From positions 91,035 to 155,034 of the forward strand of contig CAOKWH010000002.1 in the NCBI GenBank assembly GCA_948473085.1: DNA of 64,000 nucleotides, given 5' to 3'. The position numbers were made by a program, and so were the translations under genes. Shown piece by piece: positions 22,322-39,120 of the stretch. Position 1 is the stretch's first letter. Every line of letters starts with the position of its first letter. This DNA comes from an uncultured Clostridia bacterium (lineage in GTDB: Bacteria > Bacillota > Clostridia > Oscillospirales > Ruminococcaceae). The notes below the pieces were generated by a model, which had not been told where the DNA came from, ran no database searches, and was given only the letters and a program-made list of their open reading frames with translations.

Positions 22322-22455
22322 GGCCCCTTTCCGGCTTTATATTGTTTTTAGTATAGCACGTCTGATTTTGGAGCACAAGGGCGGGCGCAAAAAGGCAGGG
22401 CTATTGTGTAGCAGCCCAAAGGGAAATCTTATTCTATCCCGTGATGGAAAACTTG

Positions 22456-23200
22456 TGCTATAATAACGGCAAAGCCGTTGTTATACTTAAATTTTAAAGG
22501 CCCTTTTTCTCGCCCCCTGCGGGGCAACCGAAAAAGATGGCCAATTATACCATTCCGCTATCGATTCATGGTATAATAACGACAAAATCGTTATTATACT
22601 CAATTTATGCGCAGAACCTCGCCGCCGGAGGCGGCAACCGGTTCTAATGCGCAATTATACCATTTCGGTGTAAACACCTTCATGGTATAATAACCGCAAA
22701 TAGCTATCATATAACGCACTTCTAAAAGGAGGGGGGCGTTTGTGGGGGGAACCATATGGTTCCCTACCGCATTAGAGGGAGCGTAAGCGAACGGATACCC
22801 CGCCACAGCGGAATACCATATCGCCCGTTTCCGGGCGATATGGTATAATAACCGTAGAGCGGTTATTAACTCAATTTATGCGCAGAACCTCGCCGCCGGG
22901 GGCGGCAACCGGTTCTAATGCGCAATTATACCAGCTATCTAAAATATACCTGGGCGGCGCTTTGAGTCTTGTAGGTTATAACAACGAAGTATACAGGGTA
23001 CCTTTCTATCAAAAAGAGGGCGTTTGCGTTTCCCTATTATATGAGAGGGCGTGAAAGCGAACAGACACCTCACTGTGATACTATATCTGTGCAAGGAACC
23101 CCGTCGCTGGGCGTGGCAACCGGTTATACTATCAAAATTTTAAAGGCCCTCTTAACCCCCCTTTGCAGAGGCAGTTAAAAAGAGGGCCATATACTATATT
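22456..23200 (+). repeat. Structured intergenic locus of recurring nested-hairpin modules
   Basis: Repeated TGGTATAAT...ATTATACCA boundaries (22456-22552 imperfect, 22569-22662, 22683-22819 variant, 22841-22933), each enclosing two hairpins; 65-nt near-identical copies at 22598-22662 and 22869-22933 (one mismatch); further related module at ~23011-23200. Confidence 0.8.
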
Positions 23201-23243
23201 ATAGAGCCGTTTGGCGGCAAAGCGGAAAAAAGGAGGGGATACC

Positions 23244-24074
23244 ATGCAGAAAAAGCAGGATAGGGTCTGGACATTTGTCCTGTCCGTCTATCTATTGTGC
23301 TTTGCCCTGCGCATTTGGGAATATGTTGTGCTGCGTACCGATCAGACAGTCTTGAGCGAGGCATTTGTCCACAAGCTGCTGGGTATTGGAGTGCTTTATG
23401 CAGTTGCCAGATACAGCGGCCTGGGCCTGCGGCAGATTGGTTTTGCACCGTCCGGGGCTGCTCGGAACCTGTCGCTGGGTTTGGGCCTGGGCCTGTTGGC
23501 CTTTGTCCCGGCCTATTTGGCTGAAATTGCCCTGCTGGCTGCCCGGGGCAATTTTACGGGGGTGTGGCTGTTTGTCAGCGCCTACACTGTGGATGGCACT
23601 GCCGCTGCCCAAACCGGCCTTGTTTTCTTCCTGCTTTGCATAGCGGGGAACCTTATCAATGTGCTGATGGAGGAGGGTCTGTTCCGGGGCCTGTTCCAAA
23701 AGGCGCTGGAAACCCGCTACCCCTTTTGGGCCAGCGCCGCCCTGGCCTCCGGTTTGTTTGGCCTGTGGCATATTATGGCGCCGCTGCGCAGCTATTGGGA
23801 TGGCAGCATGGGCAGCGCCGCCTTTTGGGCCAACGCCCTGCTGCTGGTGGGCGCCTCGGCCCTGATCGGGTTTAAATTTGCGCTGCTCACCCGCATTACC
23901 GGCAGCCTCTATGCGGCAATGGGGGACCACTTTGTCAACAATACCATTGTCAATCTGCTGCATGTGCTGTCCTATAGCGGGGCGGATGAGCTGCAAACAG
24001 TGCGCATTGCCCTTGCCCAGAGCCTCTCCTTTCTCCTGGTGCTGATTTGGTATAAAAACAAACGGGGGTTATGA
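23244..24074 (+). CDS. CPBP-family intramembrane metalloprotease
   Basis: MEEGLFRGLFQKALE (EExxxR), SGLFGLWHI, DHFVNNTIVN; start at MQKKQDR. Confidence 0.9.
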   Translation: MQKKQDRVWTFVLSVYLLCFALRIWEYVVLRTDQTVLSEAFVHKLLGIGVLYAVARYSGLGLRQIGFAPSGAARNLSLGLGLGLLAFVPAYLAEIALLAARGNFTGVWLFVSAYTVDGTAAAQTGLVFFLLCIAGNLINVLMEEGLFRGLFQKALETRYPFWASAALASGLFGLWHIMAPLRSYWDGSMGSAAFWANALLLVGASALIGFKFALLTRITGSLYAAMGDHFVNNTIVNLLHVLSYSGADELQTVRIALAQSLSFLLVLIWYKNKRGL

Positions 24075-38429: not shown

Positions 38430-39120
38430 GCTTGCAGCCTCCGCCTGTTGTTCTGTTTATCCGCTCCCCTCCCGCCTGCCAAAGACAGGCGGGAACAGGT
38501 TCCTTTTTCTGTATAAGCCCTTGCAGCCTGTCCCATACTTTATTATAATAGGGGCAGGCCGCACTTTATATAGTATAGTAGCCGGCGGCGGGGCTGTCAA
38601 TGAAAACTTTTACAGTGCCCCAAAACTGCACCATGACCTGCACAATACGCCGTTTTGCTTTGGTTTTGCGCAGGAAACAATGCAAGCAGCCCCTGTAAAA
38701 CCGAATTTGGGCCTTGACAGAGAGTGCCGGAGGCCGACCAGGCAGCCGGCGGCTCCTCAAAAGGCAAAAAGGGAGGGAAAAACAGCCAAAAGCCTTAGGC
38801 AAAACGCACAGTTTTGGCAGTAAAACCTGTCGAAATGTGCGAAAATGTGAAAAAGCGCCCTTTTTAGGCCAAAAATGAAAAAAAGGCTTGCAAAGAGCAG
38901 CGGGGCGTGCTATTATAATTGAGCGTGACTGCACAAGATATGCGATGAAGCGGGAGGTGGCCGTGGCAACACGGGGAATTTCCGCCGAGTATGTCCGATT
39001 TTAAACCGGGCGACTTAACTTGAATACTGGATGGAGGATGTTGAGCTGCACAGCGGCACGGCATTTGACAGCAGGGCTGCGCCCCATGGGCGGCAGGCTT
39101 TCACAGATAAGTTCCGGGTA

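Follow-up and report, generated by a model that had tools for sequence, protein, structure and literature searches.

What kind of sequence fills the noncoding DNA directly upstream of a CPBP (Rce1-like) membrane protease gene in an uncultured Clostridia bacterium of the family Ruminococcaceae? We analyzed a 64,000-nucleotide (nt) stretch of its draft genome (contig CAOKWH010000002.1; here, the window), in which positions 22456-23200 hold a locus of modular hairpins with no plausible open reading frame (ORF), as a first-pass annotation made from the sequence alone had pointed out. That annotation set three explanations side by side: a structured noncoding RNA, a leader of the downstream protease gene, or a palindromic non-autonomous mobile element. 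Our analysis supports the third and does not favor the other two. The locus is probably made up of tandem units of a small non-autonomous mobile DNA element, borne by hairpins, that homes to the extended -10 of promoters; its copies are dispersed, sister species have empty sites, and orthologous arrays differ in their number of units.

The hairpin locus is an array of units bounded by an extended -10 motif

A sequence check found the four modules and their repeats as annotated (22456-22552, 22569-22662, 22683-22819, and 22841-22933), including the 65-nt block shared by 22598-22662 and 22869-22933 (98% identity, one mismatch). The module bounds drawn at first pass, TGGTATAATAAC to AATTATACCA, do not delimit the repeat unit. 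Its true period runs from one TGnTATAAT, which we take to be the extended -10 promoter consensus, to the next and measures about 113 nt. Positions 22456-22933 comprise four well-preserved modules of ~113 to 160 bp each, and the array goes on beyond 22933 as decayed units to ~23205, directly 5' of the ribosome-binding site (RBS) of the CPBP gene, upstream of which it stands in the sense orientation. The blocks run A-B-C-B and then, in decayed form, D, C, B, and A. The unit folds into three hairpins in a row, H1, H2, and H3, and the features of the locus are as follows.

22456..22464, plus strand: extended -10 motif, 5' copy (TGCTATAAT), TGnTATAAT being nearly invariant here in A1, A3, and A5; presumed from empty sites at other loci to be the original host promoter -10 and insertion target of unit 1
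22456..22568, plus strand: unit 1, body type A; match to covariance model R2 (136 bits, E 4.9e-21), DNA fold, copies in the own genome and many relatives
22459-22485, 22499-22542, and 22544-22577, plus strand: H1, H2, and H3 of unit 1
22569..22682, plus strand: unit 2, body type B; repeat family D1, DNA fold z of -8.4, own-genome copies of up to 98% identity
22571-22599, 22608-22653, and 22654-22691, plus strand: H1, H2, and H3 of unit 2
22683..22840, plus strand: unit 3, body type C, with a larger body; inverted repeat I5, 86-98% copies at C35, C13, C2, C9, and C6
22841..22933, plus strand: unit 4, body type B; model R2 match (67.6 bits, E 1.8e-9), 65-nt block 98% identical to unit 2
22934..23079, plus strand: decayed D-type linker (GCTATCTAAAATATACCTGGGCGGCGCTTTGAG..), then decayed C-type unit; BLAST matches to D and C blocks, direct repeat D6
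23080..23205, plus strand: decayed B-type and A-type units, ending directly before the CPBP gene leader; 63% repeat of the unit 2 block, BLAST matches to A and B blocks
23230..23246, plus strand: RBS (AAGGAGG) and ATG (23244) of the CPBP (Rce1-like) membrane protease gene, from the sequence and a PF02517 match (E 2e-13)

Unit 3 ends in a perfect 15-bp inverted repeat (22813-22846). Folded as single-stranded DNA, units 1 and 2 gave z values of -5.2 and -8.4, and none of 200 shuffled sequences was as good. The strict H2 motif (5 bp/TC/5 bp/loop/5 bp/AACC/5 bp) occurred three times in the 64-kb window, each time inside a module. Part of the C-type body (AGGGAGGGGGGCGTGTGTGGGGGGAACC..GGTTCCC; compare window positions 22720-22790) was also seen alone, without -10 palindromes, at L039, L049, and L052 in genomes G034, G002, and G017 and is possibly a separate repeat family captured by the C unit.

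Units are dispersed in the genome and across the class

A BLAST search with positions 22400-23250 gave approximately 92 matches in the bacterium's own genome (G000; a 1.89-Mb draft of 45 contigs, 99.7% complete) among the matches listed, as holds for all match counts per genome. These matches lie on many contigs, several of them at contig ends, where repeats break assemblies. The copies form approximately 40 arrays built from common blocks, namely, a 33-bp palindrome, bodies A, B, and C, and the short body D. Relatives of other genera and families have the unit as well; these are mostly draft assemblies, ORF calling was crude, and model E values are rough. The search of related genomes with a covariance model, proposed at first pass, found second copies: with model R1, 54 of 199 relatives at genome scale proved to have the unit, and with the broader model R2, 25 of 392 genomes sampled across the class did, some of them of families outside the order. 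The full architecture is retained in the most distant copies. Units are about 70 to 160 bp long, typically 113 bp, and the genes behind them are unrelated (ftsZ, obg, ychF, a cyclophilin gene, and a NifS-like gene). No unit was found at the loci of CPBP homologues in other clades, no DNA similar to the unit in the plasmid and phage records searched, and neither the A-type body nor the H1 palindrome in viral contigs.

The longest array seen, L136 (G103:C7 ~899455-900041), has at least six tandem units before an ftsZ-like gene. Variant units at L101, L143, L102, and L104 have outer arms that do not resemble TATAAT (GCTATTTTTTATT, GGTATTGATTGTGATAA, and others), and most keep the H2-like internal loop; it is possible that they are subfamilies with another target.

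Units stand directly behind extended -10 elements that at three loci are unoccupied in sister species

At the unit borders, the first base, the G, and the TATAAT of the motif are nearly invariant and n is variable (A1, A3, A5, and a comparison of 89 units). Of 56 arrays, 16 have TTG, the start of a -35 element, at exactly 17 bp before their first -10, whereas the other spacings average ~1.4; the best cases at spacing 17 are TTGACA, TTGACT, TTGACG, and TTGAAA. A sense gene start with an RBS mostly follows 30 to 85 nt downstream of the units, and by a crude ORF caller about 23 of the 29 own-genome arrays with clear flanks precede a sense gene.

The first-pass annotation had also called for a comparison of orthologous loci for presence and absence, and this comparison yielded three pairs of empty and filled sites at loci other than the window (L112, L113, and L110). 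In each, sister species have one -35/-10 promoter and no unit, and G042 has a unit directly behind that -10. At L112, G149 and G199 read TTGAAA-N17-TATGGTACAATAGCCGCATG, with N17 counted up to the TACAAT hexamer, G167 has the same promoter without a unit, and in G042 the unit lies directly 3' of the shared -10. At L113, G149 and G199 have single promoters in which TTGAAG stands 17 bp before the hexamers of TGGTATAAT and TGATATAAT; in G042, the same promoter, with TGATATAAT, is followed by the unit and then by the flank. At L110, TTGCGC in G167 is 17 bp before the hexamer of TGCTATAAT, which is followed by ACTATCC, and G042 has the same -35 and -10, the unit, and then ACTATCT. In all three comparisons, the left side preserves the host spacing of -35 and -10. 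At another gene, the orthologous array numbers three units in G149, as against two each in G042 and G167. These junctions and promoter positions indicate that units insert directly 3' of an extended -10, reading toward the downstream gene. We know of no described bacterial element that prefers -10 boxes as a target, and the open-access literature gave no description of an element targeting them.

Covariation supports three consecutive hairpins

Across the 89 units, two-sided changes occur at 34 of the 38 pairs of the fold, and neither any of 500 shuffles nor any slid structure came near this value. H1 covers the 5' -10, and H3 covers the 3' -10. A lower stem, an AT bulge, and a TC/AACC internal loop are features of H2; of the 62 rows in which its upper stem is present, 56 to 62 retain the unpaired TC, AACC, and AT, and the middle stem takes 14 different sequences. 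Because the unpaired bases are constant while the middle stem varies, we infer that H2 is a candidate hairpin read by a protein.

A different fold had been proposed at first pass, in which a 9-bp outer stem closed each module around two hairpins. The outer strands can pair, but covariation favors pairing of the end strand ATTATACCA with the TGGTATAAT of the next module, forming H3: at the variable third base, 82 of 89 units show agreement with the downstream TGnTATAAT, compared with 62 of 89 for the upstream motif. The conserved fold is therefore not the three-way junction. In units whose 5' and 3' copies are clearly different (e.g., L109, L111, L113, L124, L125, L097, L117, L105, and L142), the third base of ATTATACCA follows the 3' copy. 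Since the third base of the right-hand TGnTATAAT tracks the H3 arm and not the 5' copy, this motif is part of the element, and the left-hand one is not.

The arm of H1 matches unusual -10 sequences, namely, TACAAT (L112), TATACT (L115), TATACC (L119), and CATAAT (L141); at L206, TAAAAT occurs with ATTTTA arms, and L140 (TTTAAT) is an exception. Within each of the own arrays C5 and C18, locus-specific H1 arms are common to units whose bodies differ. The orthologous units L115 (G042) and L119 (G149) differ in a coordinated way: several H1 positions differ, and every change is matched on the other arm, which suggests palindrome correction by template switching or strong selection.

A model for movement and its alternatives

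We infer that the moving form of the unit is single-stranded DNA, folded into hairpins. The unit would insert immediately 3' of a TGnTATAAT, on the non-template strand and in the direction of transcription, so placed that the host -35 and -10 stay 17 bp apart on its 5' side, and it would bring a second TGnTATAAT at its own 3' end. The insertion would be mild, because the gene would still be preceded by a -10, now from the 3' end of the unit; that end being a target in its own right, more units could insert there, giving tandem arrays. H2, with its conserved unpaired TC/AACC and AT, would be the protein-binding hairpin. The 3' arm of H1 and the 5' arm of H3 (ATTATA..) would act as guide strands, pairing with the target -10 and with the right end of the unit, and the -10 melted in the open promoter complex would supply the single-stranded target. 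We advance only tentatively the wider proposal that single-strand mobile hairpins occur throughout the class, with DNA guide arms that read a -10, probably melted by RNA polymerase, and an enzyme of a family new to such elements.

A serious if unlikely rival is that the same element is moved by a tyrosine or serine recombinase, as a double-stranded or folded, integron-like circle that recombines with a -10 site. A one-unit circle would carry the exact TGGTATAAT|AACCGC junction seen between tandem units, its crossing with a chromosomal TGnTATAAT gives the observed products, and arrays would grow as they do with integron cassettes. On its own, however, a recombinase leaves unexplained the target-complementary arms of H1 and H3 and the conserved unpaired bases of H2.

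It is improbable that the unit is a classical miniature inverted-repeat transposable element (MITE) of a DDE transposon with TGnTATAAT as a 9-bp target duplication. Single units are indeed flanked by 9-bp direct repeats, and empty sites have one copy, but the direct repeats enclose no terminal inverted repeats. In addition, the 3' copy is often unlike the 5' copy and tracks the H3 arm (L109, L111, L113, L124, L125, and L097), which makes it part of the element and not a duplication; the simple target-duplication model was dropped on this ground.

A structured RNA leader or a regulatory RNA acting on the downstream gene is quite improbable. The strong covariation and conserved unpaired bases would suit an RNA, as would the sense position before genes, where H2 and H3 would be part of the promoter's transcript. 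A -10 at the 5' end, however, would place the transcription start near the H1 loop, so that H1 could not form in RNA. RNA-level structure tolerates G·U pairs on the sense strand and does not tolerate A·C. The counts of G·U and A·C were 15 and 15 in H1, 13 and 11 in H2, and 23 and 19 in H3 (51 versus 45 in total, of 3,059 cells), unlike those in a small tRNA control from the same sequences (11 versus 0, of 108 cells). Since G·U and A·C are equally rare, the palindromes look to be kept at the DNA level rather than the RNA level, maintained by use or by palindrome correction. The genes downstream are unrelated, and the unit is absent from orthologous promoters of sister species. A search of the modules against Rfam, another step suggested at first pass, placed the array in no known family: Rfam 15 gave no match at the gathering score (best subthreshold E, 0.042), and scans of the window and nine relative loci gave nothing credible in the array. 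A transcript probably passes through the array as a by-product of insertion. The sole Rfam match in the window above the gathering score is an S10-Clostridia ribosomal protein leader (RF03136) at 38937-39016; 6S RNA (RF00013) scored above its threshold in the relative G010 (L037, 305-496, minus strand).

Equally improbable is that the units are protein-operator palindromes at promoters, spread by gene conversion or unequal recombination and not mobile. Long perfect palindromes do cross the -10 region, and array length differs between species. Against this, the whole 110-bp unit appears de novo at new, unrelated promoters with clean junctions, the conserved H2 lies outside the -10 palindromes, and units precede housekeeping genes of all kinds.

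Movement as a repetitive extragenic palindromic (REP) element by a RAYT (Y1) transposase would suit a dispersed, intergenic, non-autonomous palindrome with bulges and internal loops but is very improbable, given that a Y1 transposase (PF01797) has no candidate in the 99.7% complete G000, is absent from other unit-bearing genomes, including the unit-rich G007, G008, and G013, and does not coincide with the unit in its presence. The IS110 DEDD transposase (PF01548) is absent from G000, G042, G149, G167, G199, and others, and TnpB (PF07282) is absent from G000, G042, and G167, with subthreshold matches only in G149 and G199. RAYT/Y1, IS110, and TnpB were rejected as mobilizers because their genes are not in the own genome. 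Genes between neighboring own arrays, named by eye from their translations, are ordinary (CinA-like, peptidases, cyclophilin, and YaaA-like), and G103 has no ORF between unit ends.

Several observations weigh against a mobile element that homes to the -10. The first -10 of the window array lacks a good -35, many of the 56 arrays surveyed likewise have no recognizable -35, and some own-genome units face convergent genes, as judged by crude ORF calling. The 3' junction at L112 has 8 extra bases, and the direction of change at the empty sites, insertion and not loss, rests on parsimony among five species. The coordinated change between L115 and L119 means that guide-target matching is renewed after insertion too and need not date from insertion. 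No mobilizing enzyme was found in the Y1, IS110, and TnpB searches, which covered the own genome and in part the genus with the empty sites and in which no recombinase or integrase family was surveyed, and the loci examined held no longer, gene-carrying version of the unit.

A hairpin of the H2 type in phage contigs

A hairpin of the H2 type, with the TC/AACC loop and AT bulge, was found in four related phage contigs, the only viral contigs found here to have one. In each of them, it has a reverse transcriptase gene (PF00078) on one side and a gene for a DUF6273 variable protein on the other. The hairpin positions (minus strand) are as follows:

L209, 847-932
L210, 3825-3910 and 1731-1786
L211, 644-729
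L212, 1231-1316

The contigs carry a reverse transcriptase of the diversity-generating retroelement (DGR) type, an Avd-like small protein, and the DUF6273 variable protein; in L210, the second H2-type hairpin is downstream and abuts a gene start. The position of this hairpin next to a reverse transcriptase gene leaves reverse transcriptase as a candidate partner of the units. None of the arrays examined has such a gene beside it, and the hairpin in the DGR phage contigs may be a coincidence.

Under the wider, tentative proposal of guide arms that read the -10, any sigma-A promoter could serve as a landing site, and each insertion would bring a fresh -10. If the proposed homing to the -10 is correct, a widespread group of gut Clostridia would have small mobile units in one orientation at promoter -10s, including those of housekeeping genes such as ftsZ and obg, and many structured "leaders" would be transposition products. 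The units would be a natural case of DNA-guided promoter targeting and would point to a mobilizing enzyme with a programmable, transcription-linked target.

Comparison with known systems

Integron attC sites are folded single-strand recombination sites in which structure outlives sequence, and integrons form tandem arrays by repeated insertion at one site. The units resemble integron cassettes in their folded sites and tandem arrays; they differ in having no coding cassette and no attI-like single locus, the target being any extended -10. REP elements and bacterial interspersed mosaic elements (BIMEs) associated with TnpA-REP (RAYT) are likewise small, noncoding, dispersed palindromes with a bulged hairpin of the protein-recognition type, often clustered. 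The units, in contrast, exceed 100 bp with three hairpins, reside in a genome without Y1, and are fixed at promoter -10 boxes and not in generic extragenic space. No GTAG or CGTC tag was apparent at the foot of the hairpin in the aligned copies, although no search was aimed at it.

Correia elements bear terminal inverted repeats and target TA. In Neisseria, they are small mobile repeats able to supply promoters (PMC3049150). In the case of the unit, a -10 is the target and stays in register with the host -35. The pneumococcal BOX (boxA-boxB-boxC), RUP, and SPRITE repeats are modular, structured, and intergenic, with a variable number of internal modules and, in the case of BOX and RUP, with terminal inverted repeats and target duplications (PMC3049150). 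The unit arrays are also modular, structured, and intergenic in Gram-positive bacteria. They are set apart by definition, not by boxA, boxB, or boxC sequence: the unit has neither terminal inverted repeats nor a target duplication, its targets are -10 boxes, and it occurs across an entire class instead of a single species group.

The layout of the unit resembles the ends of the IS200/IS605 family (IS608 and ISDra2) and of non-autonomous elements derived from it. IS608 inserts 3' of a tetranucleotide that is recognized through guides located 5' of each hairpin (PMC5934647). The unit, too, has no terminal inverted repeats and, in the three empty/filled comparisons, retains a short conserved target in its left flank, as expected for insertion directly 3' of a short fixed sequence. 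The candidate guide arms are complementary to the target and covary with it, although coordinated change also occurs after insertion; the hairpins have conserved unpaired bases, and the order of parts would by analogy be the same: target, guide, hairpin, and then guide, small hairpin, and a right end equal to the target. The unit differs in that its own host genome lacks Y1, its putative guide arms are 6 to 10 bp rather than the 4 of IS608, the presumed right guide pairs with the right cleavage site in a long perfect hairpin, and its target is the extended -10.
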